The position numbers and the translations under genes were made by a program. Shown here piece by piece: positions 48,837 through 58,198 of a stretch of 64,000 bases of DNA. Every line of letters starts with the position of its first letter. Within the stretch, counting starts at the first letter, position 1. This DNA is from Clostridia bacterium (GTDB taxonomy: Bacteria; Bacillota; Clostridia; Oscillospirales; CAG-272). Under the pieces are notes generated by a model. The model made no database searches. It was not told where the DNA came from and saw nothing but the letters and a program-made list of their open reading frames with translations. The stretch covers positions 62,001 to 126,000 of the forward strand of contig JAFQRL010000002.1 in NCBI GenBank assembly GCA_017410065.1, written 5' to 3'.

Positions 48837-50282
48837 TCAGCTGCCGATAGTAAACTTTGTTCCCTCTCTTGTATCAAGAAGAGTGATGCCCTTTGCAAGA
48901 AGCTCATCTCGGATAGCATCCGCCTCCGCAAAATTCTTTGCCTTCTTTGCGGCGCGGCGAGCCTCTATCTTCTCGTTGATGTATGCGAGAAGCTCGGGAT
49001 CGATATCCGCGTTTTCAGCCTCTGCTTCCTTTTTCTTTTCAGCATTAACGCGATCTGCGGCCGCAACAAGACCGAGATCAAGCACGGTCTCAAAATCACG
49101 AATGAGAGCAAGCTTTGTCGTATCGTTAGCGGAAAGCTTGAATACATCGTAGAGAGCGGTTACGGCAAGAGAGGTGTTAAGATCGTTATCGAGAGCATCT
49201 GTAAATCTCTTTTTCCCCTCCGCAAATGCCTGCGCATCGACGTCCTCGCCCGCCTTGGGAGCAAGAGCCGCGATCCTTGCAACAAGCTTTGTGTAAGCCG
49301 TTTTTGCATTCTCAAGATTATCCCAGGAGAATACAAGGTTACGTCTGTAATGAGACTGAAGGCAGAAGAAGCGGTAGACAAGCGGATCAAATCCGCGCTC
49401 CTCAAGAAGCGAGACCGTGAGGAATTCGCCCTTGGACTTCGACATCTTACCCGAACTGGTGTTAAGATGATGAACGTGGAGCCAATGCTTGCACCATTCG
49501 TGGCCGTAGGTCGCCTCGCTCTGCGCTATTTCATTCGTGTGATGAGGGAATGCGTTGTCTATTCCGCCGCAATGGATATCAACGTATTCGCCGAGGTGCT
49601 TGCTTGCGATGCAGGAGCACTCAATATGCCAGCCCGGATAGCCGATGCCCCAGGGAGAATCCCACTTGAGCTCCTGATCCTCAAACTTGGATTTTGTGAA
49701 CCAAAGAACGAAGTCTGCTTTATTGCGCTTATTGGAATCCTCCTCGACGCTCTCACGAACGCCGACCTCAAGATCCTCCTCCTTGAAATCGTTGAAAACA
49801 TAATATTTTTCAAGCTTCGAGGTATCAAAATAAATATTTCCGCCTGCCTCGTAGGCATAGCCCTTTGAAAGAAGTGTTTCTATCATAGCGATAAACTCGG
49901 GTATGCAGTTGGTTGCGGGCTCTATAACGTCGGGGCGCTTGATATGGAGCTTATCGCAGTCTGCAAAGAAGGCGTCGGTGTAATACTTTGCTATCTCAAG
50001 CACCGTCTTTTTTTCTCTCTTTGCTCCCTTGAGCATTTTGTCCTCACCTGTGTCTCCGTCGCTTGAAAGATGGCCGACGTCGGTGATATTCATAACGCGC
50101 TTAACGTCATTTCCCGAATAGCGAAGATATTTTTCAAGCACGTCCTCCATCGTGTAGGTGCGGAGATTGCCGATATGTGCAAAATGATAAACGGTAGGAC
50201 CGCAGGTATACATAGTTACCTTGCCTGCCTCTCTCGGCTTGAATTCATCCTTTGATCTTGTGAGCGAATTGTATAAAAGCAT
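48837..50282 (-). CDS. cysS: Cysteinyl-tRNA synthetase
   Basis: The 481-residue class I synthetase charges tRNA-Cys. Motifs: YTCGPTVYHFAHIGNLRTY near 25 (first zinc-ligand Cys and the HIGH-type motif), SCIASKHLGEYVDIHCGG near 210 and HHTNEIAQSE near 233 (further zinc ligands), and KMSKSKG near 268. ATG 50282 follows GGAAGGAGA; an upstream in-frame start adds a cysteine-rich, non-homologous stretch that comes from hairpins in the leader. It has a strong promoter and no T-box is seen. Confidence 0.96.
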   Translation of the reverse strand: MLLYNSLTRSKDEFKPREAGKVTMYTCGPTVYHFAHIGNLRTYTMEDVLEKYLRYSGNDVKRVMNITDVGHLSSDGDTGEDKMLKGAKREKKTVLEIAKYYTDAFFADCDKLHIKRPDVIEPATNCIPEFIAMIETLLSKGYAYEAGGNIYFDTSKLEKYYVFNDFKEEDLEVGVRESVEEDSNKRNKADFVLWFTKSKFEDQELKWDSPWGIGYPGWHIECSCIASKHLGEYVDIHCGGIDNAFPHHTNEIAQSEATYGHEWCKHWLHVHHLNTSSGKMSKSKGEFLTVSLLEERGFDPLVYRFFCLQSHYRRNLVFSWDNLENAKTAYTKLVARIAALAPKAGEDVDAQAFAEGKKRFTDALDNDLNTSLAVTALYDVFKLSANDTTKLALIRDFETVLDLGLVAAADRVNAEKKKEAEAENADIDPELLAYINEKIEARRAAKKAKNFAEADAIRDELLAKGITLLDTREGTKFTIGS

Positions 50283-50295
50283 TTTATCTCCTTCC

Positions 50296-50328
50296 GATGC
50301 CTCAAGGCATCTATTGCCGCAATGGCAA
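50296..50328 (-). other. Tandem hairpins in the cysS leader
   Basis: Two perfect short hairpins precede the ribosome binding site: GATGCC/GGCATC (50296-50301 with 50306-50311) and TTGCC/GGCAA (50314-50318 with 50324-50328). Neither resembles a T-box specifier domain. Confidence 0.4.
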
Positions 50329-50351
50329 ACTTGCATAGTTATTCAGATAAC

Positions 50352-50380
50352 ATTTTAGCAGAAAAGCTCGGGTTTGTCAA
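50352..50380 (-). promoter_or_regulatory. SigA-type promoter of cysS
   Basis: On the minus strand: TTGACA (50375-50380), 17-base spacer, TAAAAT (50352-50357) with extended TGC. Confidence 0.7.
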
Positions 50381-50439
50381 GTATTACGAGCGCATTATAT
50401 ATAAAATTTAAAATAAATTATATTTTTTGCGTTTTGCTC

Positions 50440-50468
50440 TTGTTTTTTTTGTTTAAATTTGATAGAAT
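50440..50468 (+). promoter_or_regulatory. SigA-type promoter of ftsK
   Basis: TTGTTT (50440-50445), 17-base spacer, TAGAAT (50463-50468), 40 bases upstream of the ATG. Confidence 0.55.
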
Positions 50469-50507
50469 ATATGTTGAGAAATTGTACCACGCGGAGGTTT
50501 GACATAT

Positions 50508-53500
50508 ATGAACAACGAAAAGAAGGAAAAGAAGAAATACTATGCAAGGCTATTTGGCTTTAGGAGAGCCGTGCCTGTTATACTTGTGGCACTAAGCATC
50601 TTTATAGCTATCTGCTTCTTCACAGACGGAGCGGGACTGCTGGGTAGCGGTGTCAGCGCATTTCTTAAGGGCTTATTCTCCTTTGGCGCGTATTTTATTC
50701 CTCCTCTGCTTATTCTTCACGCGGTGTTCTACGCGGGAGATTATGTTAAGAGCCTTACGATATCAAGAGCCATCTTCTCGTTTATCACGATTCTTATAGT
50801 ATCCTGTATCGAATACATAATCTGCTTCTGGAGCGAGCCTGTTTTCGCTCCCGGAGAATTTTATCTTCAACAAAGCGCGGGCGGCTTCCTTGGCAGTATG
50901 GTGGCATACGGCCTCGCCAGAGTGCTCGGTCCTGTTGGACTTATCATTCTCTCGGCTGCCCTTATTGCCGTTTACGTTACTTATTTCTTTGCAAACGGCA
51001 ACAGCGTTGCAAGCAGATCGGTTATGAAGGTATTCTCCGCTATCGGCGGCTTCTTCACCTCTATTGTTAAGAAGCGCAAGGCAGCCAAGGCAGAAAAAGA
51101 AGCGGCAAAGGCTGAAAACGAGCGCATAGCGGAGGAAAAGCGCAGTGCCGAGCTTATGGCAGACAGTTTCTTCGCTATGGACGAAAACGTCAGCGAGCTG
51201 AAGATCGAACAGCTCGGCATCAGCGAAAAGAACGAAGCGGCAGAGGCTCCCGCGGTTGAGGAGCCCAAGAAGGCAGAGCCCGAGCCCACCCCCGAGGTAA
51301 AAAGGGCAGAAAGACCGAAGCGAGTGCTTAATCTTGATTACGGACTCGATCTTTCTCAAAGAGGTGGGGACAAGCCCTCCGATGCAAGATCCGCAGAGCA
51401 AAAGGTCGCCGAGCCGCCCCGTGCATCGAGAATCGGTGCAGCATACGGTCTTGACGACAGCGCAGACAACGTTTTCACCAAGGACTTTGATCCCTTTGAT
51501 TTTGCAACCGCGGAAAAAATAGCGCACAGACCTTCAAGCAGAGTTAAGCCCAAAGAAAATTCGGGCATCAGCGAGGTTGCAACTCCCCTATCCGCTGTAA
51601 CCGAGGAGGATCTTTCCCTTCTTCGCCAGAAGCAGGAGGAGGACAGACGTCGCCGCGAGTTTGAGGAAAAGAAAAAAAGGATACTTGAAAATATGTCCTC
51701 AAGATCCACCTCTGCAAGTGCACCCACTAATACCTACTCCGCACCTGCGGCTCAACCTGCGGCAAGCGCGCCCACAAGCACCTATTCCGCACCTACGGCT
51801 CAACCCGTAGCAAGCGCACCTGCAAGCACCTACTCCGTACCTGCGGCTCAACCCGCGGCAAATGCACCTACAAGCACATACTCCGCCCCTGCGGCTCAAC
51901 CTGCGGCAAATGCACCTGCAAGCATCTACTCCGCTCCCGCGGCTCAACCTGCGGCAAGCGCACCCACGAGCACATACTCCGCTCCTGCGGCAGAGTCCGA
52001 GGATCGGTCCTCCGCTCATAAGAGTGTTGAATACAACATTTCCGGTGAGGAGCAGCATTCGGGCGGTGAGCCCGCAATGGGTAGCACCGTGACCTTTGTT
52101 TTCGATAAGTCGGAGCATTACCCCGACGAGACCCAAAGGATAGCCGCAGAGGTTGCTCAGATGCTTGAGAAAAACGTTACCGGCTATACCCGCAGTGCAA
52201 ACAGATCCTTTACCTACACCAAGATCAGCGAAGCAAGCAACGCTCCCGCGCAAGGACACGAAAATGAAACAGCCTTCACGATAGATACCGCAAAGGGCTC
52301 CGACGGCGCTGCAAGCGGCATTTCCGCAAGCTTTATTACTCACGGCTCCGTCGAGGCAGAAGGGGCTGACAAGCACAATGAGGTCCTCACCTACCCTCAA
52401 AGCTATGCACCGACGCAAAGCGAGACCCGCTACTCCGCCGCAGAAGACGGCGAGGCCAGACTTGGTATCGTAACCGAATTTACAACAGGCGAGCGCGAAG
52501 TGCCGTCAGCCCAAAGCTTCAACGAATATAAGGCACCCGAGATCACCTCACACACCGCCCCACAAAGCACGGAGGAGATCAGGATCGAGCGCACTATGAT
52601 CGAGCCCACCGTCACCCCCGAGCCCGCCGTTATAACCGAGCGAGACCGCCGTTTCACGGTTATCGACGAGGATATGCAGCCCGAGAACGAGGCAGATGAC
52701 AGCAGCTCAAATGAAACCGAGAGCGCAAACGGATCCGAATCCGCAACCCTTCTTGATTTCGGCGATTCAGAGGAAGACGAGCTCTCCGTGCCCGATGTCT
52801 CCGACGATATATCCGCAATATTTGACGCCGAGGACGAGGATGACGAGGACGTTGTCCCCGAAGCCCCCGACGAAGACGAGGACGGCGAAATAGAGGAGAT
52901 CCCACCCGAGGAGCAAAACCCCGAAATACTTAAGCAAAGGCAGCTTTTCCCCTTCCTTGATAACGCACCCAAAGCCGAATCAACGGTTCTCTGTGAAGAG
53001 TCGGGCGAGGCAGAAGACTATATTCCCGACGATGATGAGGATGAGCCTCCCTTTGATATTCCCGAGCAAAAGCCTGCGGCAGGTGCTCCCGAGAAAAGCG
53101 TTGCTCTGGTCCCCGAAAAGGATGCGAAGAAATCTGCTCCCAAGGCACCGAGCTATAAGGACTTTAAGTTCCCGCCCATCGAGCTTCTCGGCATCAATGC
53201 TGACGCCGCCGATGAAAACGTTCAGCTTGAGATCCAGGAAAACGCAGACAGACTTATAGACACCCTTTCCTCCTTCAACGTCACCGCCTCCATCAAGGGC
53301 GTGGACAGAGGACCCCGAATTACTCGCTACGAGGTAGTTCCCGCCAAGGGCGTTAAGGTCAGCTCTATTATGAATCTTCAGGACGATATCGCACTCAGCC
53401 TTGCGGCAGACGGTATCAGAATGGAGGCTCCCATCCCGGGCAAGAGCGCTGTCGGCGTTGAGATACCCAACAAGCACGACACGACTGTAAGGCTTCGCGA

Positions 53501-54659
53501 GCTTATCGAGACCGAGGACTTCCGCAGTATGAAATCCAAGACGTCTATCTGTATCGGTAAGGACGTTGCGGGTCAGCCTGTTATTAACGATATTGCAAAA
53601 ATGCCCCACCTGCTTATTGCGGGTGCCACGGGTATGGGTAAGTCGGTTTGTATCAACTCGCTTCTTATCAGTATTCTTTACAAGGCAAGACCCGACGAGG
53701 TCAAGCTCATAATGATCGACCCGAAGCAGGTTGAATTCACGATGTATAACGGAATCCCCCATCTTCTCATCCCCGTCGTTTCGGATGCGAAGCAGGCGGC
53801 AGGCGCACTTATGTGGGCGGTAGACGAGATGGAAAAGCGATTCACTCAGCTCAATTCGGCTTGCGTTCGTAATATCGACGGCTACAACGAGAAGGTTGCA
53901 GAGGATCCCTCGCTCGGCGAGCCCATGTCCAAGATCATTATCGTTATAGACGAGTTTGCCGACCTTATGCTTCAGGTCAAGGATCCTGTTGAAAACCTGG
54001 TTATGAGAATAGCCCAGAAGGCAAGAGCCGCAGGCATACATCTCATTATCGGTACACAGCGTCCCTCAACCAACGTTATTACGGGTACCATCAAGGCGAA
54101 TATCCCCTCCCGTATGTCCTGTAAGGTTGCATCGAACGTTGACTCAAGAACGGTTCTTGACACAGTCGGTGCGGAAAAGCTTCTAAACAAGGGCGATATG
54201 CTCTTTGCTTATGCAGGAGCGATCAAGCCCCTCAGAGTTCAGGGTGCGTTCGTTTCCGACGGCGAGGTTCAGAACATAATGAATCACCTTAAGCAGTTCA
54301 GTACAGGCGCAGATTACGACGAGGCTGTTATGGAGGAGATCAAGCGTGCCGCAGACAAATGCTCCAAGAAGGGCTCGGGAGGCGGTGACGACGAGCGAGA
54401 CGGAGACGATTCAAGCGGCGAGGGCTTCCTTAACGACAGGCAGTTCCTTGAGGCTGTTGAGGTTGCCGTTAATTCGGGCAAGATCTCAACCTCCCTGCTT
54501 CAGCGTAAGATATCCGTCGGATACGGAAAGGCGGCGAAGTTTATCGACGTTATGTGCGATATGGGCATCGTGAGTGAGCCCAACGGCTCAAAGGCGCGCG
54601 AGGTGCTTATCACCCCCGATGAATGGCGCGAGAAGCTCGCGCGCACTCAATATGATTAA
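50508..54659 (+). CDS. ftsK: FtsK/SpoIIIE-family DNA translocase
   Basis: The 1383-residue membrane-anchored motor pumps chromosomal DNA through the division or sporulation septum. Four transmembrane helices (about 18-170) are followed by a basic coiled stretch, a very long linker (about 200-880) with six 16-residue Ala/Pro/Ser/Tyr repeats (about 403-495) and a highly acidic stretch (about 760-820), then the alpha-beta motor (Walker A GATGMGKSV near 1040, Walker B KIIIVIDEFADLM near 1145) and a C-terminal gamma winged helix ending VLITPDEWREKL. Start ATG 50508 follows GGAGG. The size is nearly twice that of B. subtilis SpoIIIE because of the linker. FtsK versus SpoIIIE roles cannot be separated. 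Confidence 0.94.
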   Translation: MNNEKKEKKKYYARLFGFRRAVPVILVALSIFIAICFFTDGAGLLGSGVSAFLKGLFSFGAYFIPPLLILHAVFYAGDYVKSLTISRAIFSFITILIVSCIEYIICFWSEPVFAPGEFYLQQSAGGFLGSMVAYGLARVLGPVGLIILSAALIAVYVTYFFANGNSVASRSVMKVFSAIGGFFTSIVKKRKAAKAEKEAAKAENERIAEEKRSAELMADSFFAMDENVSELKIEQLGISEKNEAAEAPAVEEPKKAEPEPTPEVKRAERPKRVLNLDYGLDLSQRGGDKPSDARSAEQKVAEPPRASRIGAAYGLDDSADNVFTKDFDPFDFATAEKIAHRPSSRVKPKENSGISEVATPLSAVTEEDLSLLRQKQEEDRRRREFEEKKKRILENMSSRSTSASAPTNTYSAPAAQPAASAPTSTYSAPTAQPVASAPASTYSVPAAQPAANAPTSTYSAPAAQPAANAPASIYSAPAAQPAASAPTSTYSAPAAESEDRSSAHKSVEYNISGEEQHSGGEPAMGSTVTFVFDKSEHYPDETQRIAAEVAQMLEKNVTGYTRSANRSFTYTKISEASNAPAQGHENETAFTIDTAKGSDGAASGISASFITHGSVEAEGADKHNEVLTYPQSYAPTQSETRYSAAEDGEARLGIVTEFTTGEREVPSAQSFNEYKAPEITSHTAPQSTEEIRIERTMIEPTVTPEPAVITERDRRFTVIDEDMQPENEADDSSSNETESANGSESATLLDFGDSEEDELSVPDVSDDISAIFDAEDEDDEDVVPEAPDEDEDGEIEEIPPEEQNPEILKQRQLFPFLDNAPKAESTVLCEESGEAEDYIPDDDEDEPPFDIPEQKPAAGAPEKSVALVPEKDAKKSAPKAPSYKDFKFPPIELLGINADAADENVQLEIQENADRLIDTLSSFNVTASIKGVDRGPRITRYEVVPAKGVKVSSIMNLQDDIALSLAADGIRMEAPIPGKSAVGVEIPNKHDTTVRLRELIETEDFRSMKSKTSICIGKDVAGQPVINDIAKMPHLLIAGATGMGKSVCINSLLISILYKARPDEVKLIMIDPKQVEFTMYNGIPHLLIPVVSDAKQAAGALMWAVDEMEKRFTQLNSACVRNIDGYNEKVAEDPSLGEPMSKIIIVIDEFADLMLQVKDPVENLVMRIAQKARAAGIHLIIGTQRPSTNVITGTIKANIPSRMSCKVASNVDSRTVLDTVGAEKLLNKGDMLFAYAGAIKPLRVQGAFVSDGEVQNIMNHLKQFSTGADYDEAVMEEIKRAADKCSKKGSGGGDDERDGDDSSGEGFLNDRQFLEAVEVAVNSGKISTSLLQRKISVGYGKAAKFIDVMCDMGIVSEPNGSKAREVLITPDEWREKLARTQYD
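51714..51992 (+). repeat. 48-bp tandem repeat in the ftsK linker
   Basis: Six in-frame copies of a 48-base unit start at 51714, 51762, 51810, 51858, 51906 and 51954 (the last incomplete), each coding for a 16-residue unit like ASAPTSTYSAPAAQPA. Copies differ mainly at third positions and a few residues (APAS, ANAP, SVPA), so the protein pattern is conserved while the DNA has drifted. Confidence 0.9.
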
Positions 54660-54712
54660 AGAATCTGCCCCGTGCCATTGAGTGCGCGAGGTAGTTCAGG
54701 AAAAATTAAAAG

Positions 54713-54747
54713 GCATTGGAGCCGATCCTTTGATTCGGCTCCAATGC
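54713..54747 (+). other. Strong hairpin between the two FtsK-type genes
   Basis: A perfect 13-base stem (54713-54725 with 54735-54747) with a 9-base loop lies 19 bases before the AGGAGG of the next gene. It has no T tract, so it is more likely an mRNA processing or stability element than a terminator. Confidence 0.5.
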
Positions 54748-54778
54748 TGATATACAGATAGAAATGAGGAGGACAAAT

Positions 54779-56806
54779 ATGATAATCGTTTTACTTGCAA
54801 ACGGCTTCGAGGAGATCGAGGCACTCACCCCCGTTGATATTTTAAGGCGCGAGGGCTATGAGGTCAAAACCGTTGGAATATCCGGCAAAAGCGCGATCGG
54901 CTCCCACGGAATAGAGGTCGTGTGTGATGCCCTGCCCTCCGATATAGATCTATCAAAGGTTGATTTGGCAGTGTTCCCGGGCGGTATGCCCGGTGCCCTT
55001 AATCTTGACGGCTCGGAATTCACCGGTAAGGTGATCAACCGCGTTTTGGAGCAAGGAGGGCATCTTGCCGCTATTTGCGCGGCACCGCTTATTTTTGGAC
55101 GAAGGGGGCTTCTCAGCGGAAGACGATCCACCTGCTTCCCCGGCTTTGAAGGAGAGCTTCGCGGCGCAACCGTTTTGAATGCAGACGTTGTTACGGACGG
55201 TTGCTTCACCACGGGCAGAGGTATGACGGTTTCCCTTGAATTTGCAAGAGAGCTTGTCCGTGTGCTCAAGGAGAGACCAAATAGAGGCACCGCGCCTCTT
55301 GAGAATGAAGGGGACGTTTCCAAGGTCACAACAGAATATACCGCTCCCCCGCTTGATCTTCTGAAAGCTCCGTCTGCTGACGACGGTGCCATAGCGGCAG
55401 AGTCCGAGAAAATGGCAGAAAAGCTCGTTGAAAATTTCCAGTCGCTGGGTTATAGCGTTACCGTCACGAGCATCACCCAAGGACCAAGGCTCACAAGCTA
55501 CAAGGTATTACCCGAGAAGGCTATAAGGGTATCTGAGCTCAAATACCTCGATGCCGACCTTTCTCTTTATCTCTGCGTTGAAGGCTTGAGAATACTGCTC
55601 CCCACAAGCGGTGAGAAATCCTTCACCGTTGAGATCCCTAACAAAAACAGCCGACCCGTGTATTTAAGAGAGCTTCTTGAGTGCGAGAAATTTTCGGGTG
55701 CAAGCTCTAAAACCACCGTGTGCATCGGTAAGAGCACAACGGGGGAAAACATCCTGTGCGATATTCACAATATGCCCCATCTTCTTGTTTCGGGAGTCAC
55801 GGGTATGGGCAAGTCGGTCTGCATTAATTCTATTCTCGCAAGCCTTCTTTATAAGGCTACTCCGGACGAGGTAAAGCTCATCCTGATAGATCCAAAGCAG
55901 GTTGAATTTAATTCCTATAACGGTATTCCCCATCTTATCACCCCCGTTATCACCGATATGAATATGGCTGTCGGTGCTCTCAGGTGGGCTATCGGTGAGA
56001 TGGAGCGCAGATATCAGCTCATCTCCGACGCACAGGTAAGAAATCTTGACGGCTATAACCTTAAATGCGCGGCAGACCCCAAGGTCGGCAAGCCGCTTCC
56101 CAAGATAATAATCGTTATAGACGAGCTTTCGGATCTTATGATGTTTAAAAGAGGTGCGGCAGAGGGACCCATTATGAGAATAGCCCAGAAGGCAAGAGCC
56201 GCGGGTATTCATTTGATAATCGGAACGCAAAGACCTTCTCCTTCCGTGATCTCGGGTGTGATAAAAGCTAATATACCCACCAGAATATGCTTCAAGGTCA
56301 GCTCGCAGTTGGATTCGAGAACCGTTCTTGAGGTATCGGGAGCCGAAAAGCTCTTGAATAGCGGCGATATGCTCTTCTCCCTTGCAGGATCTCCAGTACC
56401 CGTGAGAGTTCAGGGCGCATATATCTCGGATAGCGAGATTCGGGCGATAACCGATCATCTAAAGGACTTCCCCACCAGAGAGTGTGTCACAGAGGAGATC
56501 AAAAAGGAAGCTGAAAAGCTTTGTGCATCACCCGATAACTGTGACGAGCTCGCAGACGAGGATGACGAAACAGCAAGCTATCTTGATGACGACACCTTCC
56601 TTGATGCGGTCGATACAGTAATAAGAGCAGGCAAGGCATCCACCTCCCTTCTCCAGAGAAAGCTTTCGATCGGCTACGGTAAGGCTGCTAAATATATTGA
56701 CGTAATGTGCGAGCTTGGAGTAATAAGCGAGAGTTGCGGCGCAAAGCCGAGAGACGTGCTCATAACGGCAGACGAATGGGCAGAAAGGCTTGATCAGCTG
56801 AGCTGA
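54779..56806 (+). CDS. DJ-1/PfpI domain fused to a soluble FtsK-type DNA translocase
   Basis: This 675-residue protein joins two domains normally found apart. Residues 1 to about 175 are a DJ-1/PfpI domain with the conserved Glu in ANGFEEIE (E14) and the nucleophile-elbow Cys in AAICAAP (C100), plus VFPGGMPGA. After a linker of about 20 residues a complete FtsK motor begins at YTAPPLDLLK: alpha region with TQGPRLTSYKV, Walker A GVTGMGKSV near 340, Walker B KIIIVIDELSDLM near 445, QKARAAGIHLIIGTQRP near 470, and the gamma winged helix ending VLITADEWAERL. No membrane segment exists, so the motor is predicted cytoplasmic, unlike the adjacent FtsK. ATG 54779 follows AGGAGG; the frame is open with no internal stop. 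It is probably a diverged duplicate of the neighbouring motor. Confidence 0.88.
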   Translation: MIIVLLANGFEEIEALTPVDILRREGYEVKTVGISGKSAIGSHGIEVVCDALPSDIDLSKVDLAVFPGGMPGALNLDGSEFTGKVINRVLEQGGHLAAICAAPLIFGRRGLLSGRRSTCFPGFEGELRGATVLNADVVTDGCFTTGRGMTVSLEFARELVRVLKERPNRGTAPLENEGDVSKVTTEYTAPPLDLLKAPSADDGAIAAESEKMAEKLVENFQSLGYSVTVTSITQGPRLTSYKVLPEKAIRVSELKYLDADLSLYLCVEGLRILLPTSGEKSFTVEIPNKNSRPVYLRELLECEKFSGASSKTTVCIGKSTTGENILCDIHNMPHLLVSGVTGMGKSVCINSILASLLYKATPDEVKLILIDPKQVEFNSYNGIPHLITPVITDMNMAVGALRWAIGEMERRYQLISDAQVRNLDGYNLKCAADPKVGKPLPKIIIVIDELSDLMMFKRGAAEGPIMRIAQKARAAGIHLIIGTQRPSPSVISGVIKANIPTRICFKVSSQLDSRTVLEVSGAEKLLNSGDMLFSLAGSPVPVRVQGAYISDSEIRAITDHLKDFPTRECVTEEIKKEAEKLCASPDNCDELADEDDETASYLDDDTFLDAVDTVIRAGKASTSLLQRKLSIGYGKAAKYIDVMCELGVISESCGAKPRDVLITADEWAERLDQLS

Positions 56807-56906
56807 CCTTCCAAGCCTCGCTCGGGCTTGCCTCGCGTGATGCCCGCATTTAATTAAGCAAAGCTTGCCCTCGGATATATCTCCAAGGGCTATAAAGGAG
56901 TATTAT

Positions 56907-57554
56907 ATGGTTATTGAACCTAAAAAAAGAAATATTGCATATAGGTGCCCCGAGTGTGGCACAGCGGTGCTTGGTCTTGTTGGAAAATTCGCTCTCAAGG
57001 CGGATCTTTTGCGCCTTAAGTGCTCTTGCGGCGAGGGCGATGCAATGGATATCGGCGCCGCCTCTGATAAGAGAGTGAGGCTTTCCGTGCCCTGCCTTTT
57101 CTGCAAGCAAAACCATAGCTACACAGTTAGCGAAAGCATCTTCTTTGACCGCGACGAATTTATGCTTAACTGCCCTTATTCGGGTATGGATATAGCATTT
57201 ATGGGAACCGAGGAGGAGATTGGTGCACAGCTCGACAGAACCAAGACCGAGATCGAGCGGCTTATGATGAGCCTCGGCGCGGAGGAGCTTTCGGATATTC
57301 AGCCCCAGGATATGAACGAGGATGAAATACTCCCCGACCCTGCAGTTTACGACACCCTCAAATTTCTCATCCGCGATCTTGAGGACGAGGGCAAGGTGAT
57401 CTGCCCCTGCGGCGAGGGTAGCTACGAGCTCCGTTTCTGCGACGGCGGCGTGCAGGTCTATTGCGAAAGGTGCGGTGCAAGCTACACCTTCAAGGCAATG
57501 ACTCCCACAATGGCTGAGGAATATCTCGGTCTTGATGAGATCCGCCTGAAATAA
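56907..57554 (+). CDS. Cysteine-rich CpXC-like protein of unknown function
   Basis: A 215-residue protein with paired cysteines: YRCPECGTAVLG near 14, LKCSCGEGD near 37, VPCLFCKQNHSYTV near 63, and in the C-terminal third VICPCGEGSYELRFC with YCERCGASYTF near 168-195. These suggest several zinc-ribbon-like knuckles separated by an acidic helical segment (TEEEIGAQLDRTKTEIERLM). It resembles CpXC-type proteins but I cannot assign a function. ATG 56907 follows AAAGGAG. It follows the DJ-1/FtsK gene by 100 bases. Confidence 0.7.
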   Translation: MVIEPKKRNIAYRCPECGTAVLGLVGKFALKADLLRLKCSCGEGDAMDIGAASDKRVRLSVPCLFCKQNHSYTVSESIFFDRDEFMLNCPYSGMDIAFMGTEEEIGAQLDRTKTEIERLMMSLGAEELSDIQPQDMNEDEILPDPAVYDTLKFLIRDLEDEGKVICPCGEGSYELRFCDGGVQVYCERCGASYTFKAMTPTMAEEYLGLDEIRLK

Positions 57555-57628
57555 ACTTATCTTTCCGATCTTGCCCTGACTGGCAAGACTTGAACCCATA
57601 GCCCTTCCGGGGCTGAGACGTTATATGA

Positions 57629-58198
57629 TCAAAGCAAGCCGTAATAGATGAGTATTCCTCTGTATATTCCCGTTGAGAAAAGATACGGTGAGTTTGCAAG
57701 GAGATCCGCATCGTAGGAATTGGAAATAAAGCCCATCTCCACAAGCACCGCAGGCATTTGAGTCCGCTTCAGCACGTAGAGCCCCGGGCGATAAACTATT
57801 CCTCTGTTTCGCAGTCCTGTTGTGAGCGTCAGCTGCTCTAAAATATCCTCGCCGAGACCTATTGCCACGGTTGAGGACGGACCGTAAACGAGGGCTTCGT
57901 TGCCTGTGGCGGCTGTGTTGGTTGCTGAATTTGTGTGCAGGGATATAAATATATCCGCGCCCCAGGAGTTTGCCTCACGCACTCTTGCAGTAAGGCTTGA
58001 TGAATTGTTTGTGCCAAGCACCGTATCGGGCGTTGGGCGTGAAAGTCTCGCTTCGAACTCGGAATTTGCGGAAAGAAGATTATATAATCTTCTCCCTATC
58101 TCGTAGGTTATGTCCTGCTCAAAATAGCCGTTGCCCTCGGCTCCCGTATTGAAGCCGCTGGGGTTATGGCCCTGGTCTATATATATTTTTATTGCCAC
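57629..58198 (-). CDS. N-acetylmuramoyl-L-alanine amidase (Amidase_3), without signal peptide
   Basis: The 189-residue zinc amidase cleaves the bond between MurNAc and the stem peptide. Zinc and catalytic residues: His in IYIDQGHNPSG, Glu in GYFEQDITYEIG, His in ISLHTNSA, and Glu in LVEMGFISN. The best start is GTG 58198 with AAGGAG seven bases upstream, giving a catalytic domain alone with no signal peptide, membrane anchor or cell-wall-binding domain. Cell-wall amidases such as CwlD are exported, so the absence is notable. A phage-derived endolysin or a truncated gene are alternatives. Confidence 0.85.
   Translation of the reverse strand: MAIKIYIDQGHNPSGFNTGAEGNGYFEQDITYEIGRRLYNLLSANSEFEARLSRPTPDTVLGTNNSSSLTARVREANSWGADIFISLHTNSATNTAATGNEALVYGPSSTVAIGLGEDILEQLTLTTGLRNRGIVYRPGLYVLKRTQMPAVLVEMGFISNSYDADLLANSPYLFSTGIYRGILIYYGLL

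Follow-up and report, generated by a model that had tools for sequence, protein, structure and literature searches.

A DJ-1 domain fused in frame to a soluble, probably SftA-like FtsK motor in a genus of Clostridia

FtsK is a hexameric pump for double-stranded DNA that encircles its substrate as a ring, with its gamma domain giving the direction. DJ-1 proteins form dimers and their true substrate is still debated. Among described systems, the closest counterpart of the protein reported here is SftA (YtpS) of Bacillus subtilis, a soluble FtsK-type translocase without transmembrane (TM) helices that partners membrane FtsK/SpoIIIE and, beside the membrane FtsK, clears DNA from the closing septum (PMC5357621). 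On the DJ-1 side, the human protein hydrolyses cyclic 3-phosphoglyceric anhydride, a reactive glycolytic anhydride (PMC10915168).

We analysed a 64,000-nucleotide stretch of DNA from a Clostridia bacterium (the window), in which one reading frame encodes both a DJ-1 domain and an FtsK motor. Below, K1 denotes the canonical membrane FtsK (main ftsK) and K2 the second, soluble FtsK motor; G000 is the genome of this window and other G-numbers are the genomes of relatives. As for SftA, the soluble motor shares its genome with a membrane FtsK, a likeness in the sense of 'works like SftA' that is drawn from SftA's description. Unlike SftA, for which no such head is described (PMC5357621), the fusion carries DJ-1 at its N-terminus; moreover, K2 looks like a duplicate of ftsK that arose within the genus. 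Recruitment to the FtsZ ring is known of SftA. The motor shares alpha, beta and gamma domains, Walker motifs and fold with FtsK/SpoIIIE motors (2IUT, 2IUS, 6T8B; 41-43% identity), but has a DJ-1 domain in place of their 4TM anchor. Similarly, the head resembles DJ-1/YajL proteins (TIGR01383; 4K2H, 1P5F) in domain extent, E14, C100 and fold, but serves as the N-terminal head of a motor, whereas that family normally consists of small stand-alone proteins.

Architecture of the reading frame

ORF analysis of the window revealed a single open frame at 54779-56806 (+), running from 54764/54779 to the stop at 56806, in which a DJ-1 domain is followed, after a linker of about 25 residues, by a complete FtsK alpha-motor-gamma unit spanning aa 190-663 (Table 1). 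The original prediction, an in-frame DJ-1/FtsK fusion, is borne out by this uninterrupted ORF and by full-length fusions in other species. Its N-terminal DJ-1 domain is present as well, but ends at about residue 164 rather than 175.

Table 1. Features of the fusion gene and its flanks, in window coordinates
Feature	Position	Strand	Basis
ftsK (K1), membrane-anchored: four TM-like segments, long linker, alpha-motor-gamma	50499..54659	+	Pfam, hydropathy
Two strong hairpins, ftsK end and gap to fusion gene	about 54640-54690, 54712-54748	+	Fold z-score -3.7
Good Shine-Dalgarno GAGGAGG, serving ATG 54779	54766..54772	+	
DJ-1/YajL-type domain, aa 1-164 (E14, C100, A101)	54779..55270	+	Pfam DJ-1_PfpI (aa 2-161, E 5e-36), TIGR01383, alignment, fold match
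Predicted flexible linker, aa 165-189, ending at YTAPPLDLL, the opening motif of FtsK alpha	55271..55345	+	pLDDT <50 at 170-183
FtsK alpha domain, aa 190-288	55346..55642	+	Pfam FtsK_alpha (aa 190-288, E 2e-17)
FtsK motor beta, aa 296-487	55664..56239	+	Pfam FtsK_SpoIIIE (aa 296-487, E 2e-59); Walker A GVTGMGKS, Walker B IIIVIDEL, GTQRP
FtsK gamma, winged-helix DNA reader, aa 603-663	56585..56767	+	Pfam FtsK_gamma (aa 603-663, E 3e-21)
'zr' gene	56865..57554	+	No Pfam match

The head scored 136.2 bits against the NCBIfam DJ-1 family model TIGR01383 (cut-off 131.25). As anticipated from this one sequence, its Glu and Cys are conserved: E14 and C100 are invariant in an alignment of all five full fusions found in the genus. 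PfpI proteases carry a His directly after the nucleophilic Cys; here A101 follows C100 in all five fusions, and a PfpI protease reading was rejected on this ground.

In the alignment, the junction falls just before YxxPxxDLL, the motif that opens FtsK alpha, so that nothing of FtsK's 4TM-plus-linker portion is present. No 19-residue window of the fusion protein exceeds a hydropathy of 1.6, leaving it without a TM segment, and Pfam returned no FtsK_4TM match in it. All parts of an FtsK/SpoIIIE module were matched, namely alpha, gamma and a RecA-like beta that carries Walker A and B, in agreement with the proposal of a complete FtsK lacking membrane helices. By these sequence features, the fusion protein is a soluble FtsK paralogue and not of the membrane type. 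The predicted model showed confident folds (mean pLDDT 92) with low confidence at 170-183 and 595-598 only, and the linker between DJ-1 and FtsK alpha is probably disordered. The model fits FtsK motor structures with a target TM of about 0.9, and DJ-1 structures match too.

Part of the earlier interpretation had to be revised. The upstream neighbour does have four TM-like segments and an FtsK_4TM match, but starts at 50499, not 50508. This intact membrane FtsK retains its anchor, so that the anchor was not replaced; the fusion motor is a second, paralogous copy beside it. The linker of this membrane protein includes a Pro/Ala/Ser/Thr-rich repeat, encoded by a 48-base tandem repeat (5.8 copies, window 51714-51991). 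The hairpins at 54640-54748 lack a T tract and no Rfam match was found in window 50000-58000; perhaps these structures between ftsK and the fusion gene act in transcript processing or attenuation.

The DJ-1/FtsK junction showed no in-frame internal start preceded by a good ribosome site, and separate translation of the motor from such a start was rejected. DJ-1 and the FtsK motor in one protein represent a real, apparently undescribed gene fusion. That two genes were joined by an assembly or frame error is extremely unlikely: the relatives examined are draft genomes, their titled records being metagenome-assembled, but the same fusion occurs in five species, on different contigs and at 49-53% identity to the one in this window, and GC3 is alike on both sides of the junction. 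We rejected an assembly artefact on the grounds that the fusion is common to five species, which also dispels the early concern that it might be confined to one assembly.

Gene order and recurrence in the genus

We sampled 69 genomes of the genus, 63 of which had the ftsK/dj1 region visible. In 61 of these 63, dj1 comes after ftsK, with both genes sharing strand and contig; the two genes lie on different contigs in the remaining two. Throughout the genus, the order cysS - ftsK - dj1 - [K2] - zr - amidase - ttcA is nearly fixed, with other genes between dj1 and zr in part of it, and zr marks the downstream side of the K2 slot in nearly all members. Several other Clostridia, including sister genera, have the order ftsK - tmk - dj1, and dj1 is therefore an old neighbour of ftsK.

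Most of the genus has no K2, and dj1 is a separate gene adjoining ftsK in most relatives. Full in-frame DJ1-FtsK ORFs with the same domain boundary were found in at least five species (G000, G001, G022, G023 and G076). A further genome, G031, encodes a 530-residue protein of DJ1 and a decayed motor, and three others (G010, G020, G025) encode DJ1 joined to gamma only. Full, partial and decayed stages of DJ1-FtsK are thus visible in living relatives.

Proteins of DJ-1 and FtsK gamma alone are encoded at L056:4627-5433 (+), L066:4256-5116 (+) and L072:4638-5531 (+); from their domain content, they are possible DNA-binding DJ-1 proteins. Small stand-alone FtsK gamma proteins lie away from ftsK at L112:2489-2890 (-) and L113:2710-3213 (-), the latter with an RRXRR-like N-terminus and the former with a similar sequence upstream.

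To look outside the genus, we scanned 295 genomes of the order for DJ-1, 391 genomes of the class with profiles, and GTDB r220 species; no further full fusion appeared among the matches listed. The original prediction named no described function for this combination and, likewise, none of the literature searched dealt with a DJ-1 plus FtsK architecture; three PfpI plus FtsK literature matches were judged incidental from their titles and term counts. Each part is known, as are soluble FtsK paralogues; what appears to be new is their DJ-1 and TIR heads and the series of stages seen at a single slot. Most likely, the fusion is a variant of the known soluble FtsK pumps.

Origin and conservation of the second motor

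K2 motors are closest to FtsK of their own genus and not to an outside family. In a tree that included all K2 motors, those headed by DJ-1 and by TIR formed a joint clade (SH-aLRT 96, with long branches making the clade unsafe) placed beside FtsK of one half of the genus. Approximately unbiased (AU) tests rejected neither a single K2 origin nor the derivation of the G000 and G001 copies from FtsK of their own genomes (p 0.31-0.71). In the DJ1-gamma protein of G010, gamma is 85% identical to that of the genome's own FtsK, as would be expected if 3' pieces of ftsK were duplicated locally behind dj1.

The branch of the window's genome measured 0.81-0.83 for K2 compared to 0.12 for K1, and the second motor evolves faster than the main FtsK by a factor of about 5-7. 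The DJ-1 half, in turn, has an end branch of 0.32 against a median of 0.31, that is, the rate of free DJ-1 proteins. As a conservation reference, we used the 99 positions invariant in 62 K1 proteins. The DJ-fused K2 motors kept 86-91 of them (87-92%) at 38-52% identity elsewhere, TIR-headed K2 motors kept 55-70, and the decayed G031 copy kept 29. Four of the five full fusions (G000, G001, G022 and G023) have intact Walker A, Walker B and GTQRP motifs; in G076, Walker B is changed (IIEEF). Retention of invariant motor residues while other columns diverged suggests, at the sequence level, purifying selection on the DJ-fused motor.

This pattern bears on whether the motor matters at all. Duplication might repeatedly drop ftsK 3' pieces behind dj1, leaving a motor that is tolerated or slowly decaying and a DJ-1 half that alone counts. 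Such a by-product of genome change would fit the decayed motor of G031, the gamma-only tails, the absence of K2 from most of the genus and a motor evolving much faster than K1 or the DJ-1 half. We nevertheless consider it unlikely, as five long-diverged, stop-free full fusions keep both these motor residues and gamma, and, given the length of the K2 branches, intact frames would hardly have survived without selection.

We favor, with a probability of about 0.5, the reading that K2 is a soluble, SftA-like translocase that arose as a local ftsK duplicate beside dj1 and was fused to a still catalytic DJ-1. By local duplication, the cytoplasmic part of ftsK would have come to lie in the slot immediately 3' of dj1, with which it was joined in frame. 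A tandem duplication with one end within ftsK and the other immediately ahead of the dj1 stop codon could give the order in one step; however, the second dj1 copy that it predicts is absent, which counts against this explanation, as do the absence of K2 from most of the genus, its fast evolution, the G031 decay and the G076 Walker B.

Possible roles and TIR-headed motors

By homology, the K2 motor would form a ring that runs along double-stranded DNA at the expense of ATP, with gamma setting its orientation. It would aid membrane FtsK in moving chromosomal DNA during division, much as SftA works alongside SpoIIIE. The DJ-1 half is the only PF01965 (DJ-1/PfpI) protein of the genome and would presumably keep the ordinary role of a sole DJ-1 protein; it may also pair subunits or rings, since DJ-1 proteins dimerise. 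A link to sporulation, suggested initially, was not supported, as no Spo0A was found in the 96% complete genome; the protein may still take part in DNA or protein damage control, which was also suggested.

The simplest reading is that two working parts were tied by fusion of neighbors, while selection for the tie itself is possible. In the latter case, the DJ-1 head would have been selected to travel with the DNA motor; it might, for instance, repair DNA or proteins that are glycated or acylated close to the septum, or regulate the motor with C100 as a redox switch. The shared order and boundary in five species and the retained DJ-1 residues are consistent with such coupling, and so are the gamma-only DJ-1 fusions in another part of the genus, which may mean that DJ-1 acquired a DNA-binding partner repeatedly. 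We consider it doubtful, given that the fused partner is the neighboring gene, so that adjacency alone explains the fusion, that DJ-1 is free in most relatives and that the slot also takes TIR-headed motors.

These TIR-headed motors, found in G059, G060 and G074, lie right after dj1 as a separate ORF with a TIR_2 head. In G059, the motor is in frame with dj1, with one TAA between them; in G074, the protein has two motors; and G020 encodes a TIR-FtsK protein on another contig. The G059 TIR query did not pick up the G060 TIR head within the genus, and TIR heads may therefore have been gained more than once. TIR_2 plus soluble FtsK alpha-motor-gamma proteins are encoded at L084:5535-7538 (+), L085:5527-7479 (-), L097:6548-9715 (+; TIR, two motors and gamma) and L067:2354-4105 (-); the Walker A lysine is changed in L085 and the Walker motifs are altered in L067. 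Like the DJ-1 fusion, those of L084, L085 and L097 combine a soluble alpha-motor-gamma unit with the slot after dj1, but differ in their TIR_2 head, separate ORF and less conserved motor residues.

A soluble FtsK ring sensing DNA, with exchangeable TIR or DJ-1 heads as effectors, would resemble HerA/FtsK-type conflict systems. TIR-FtsK proteins in the same slot and, in G020, on another contig would fit this idea, and the PADLOC profiles SspH and mads_8 match the fusion, through its motor domain only. It is nonetheless very unlikely, because the head is a core DJ-1 gene and not a toxin domain, the site is fixed in the core genome among core genes, and such TIR domains are fused to many unrelated modules in the bacterial family. 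An assignment to anti-phage SspH or MADS8 was likewise rejected, with the SspH profiles matching only by the motor part, mads_8 itself being motor-sized and the neighbors being core genes.

More broadly, the slot after dj1 might be modular, taking a soluble FtsK ring or gamma alone with exchangeable heads (DJ-1, TIR), such that DNA binding or translocation controls the attached enzyme. This is an unlikely and quite speculative proposal; if true, the slot would hold a new class of DNA-motor-coupled enzymes. Under the preferred reading of a local, soluble ftsK duplicate, the locus would illustrate how, at a single chromosomal site, a copied FtsK motor can shed its membrane anchor and acquire new heads (DJ-1, TIR). 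It would also be a natural setting in which to test the function of a second, soluble FtsK and whether DJ-1 has a DNA-linked role.

Finally, TIR domains related to the TIR-FtsK head occur on many other modules in the bacterial family (L195, L196, L199, L200, L204), their partners being Sel1-like repeats, LRR-like repeats and TM parts.
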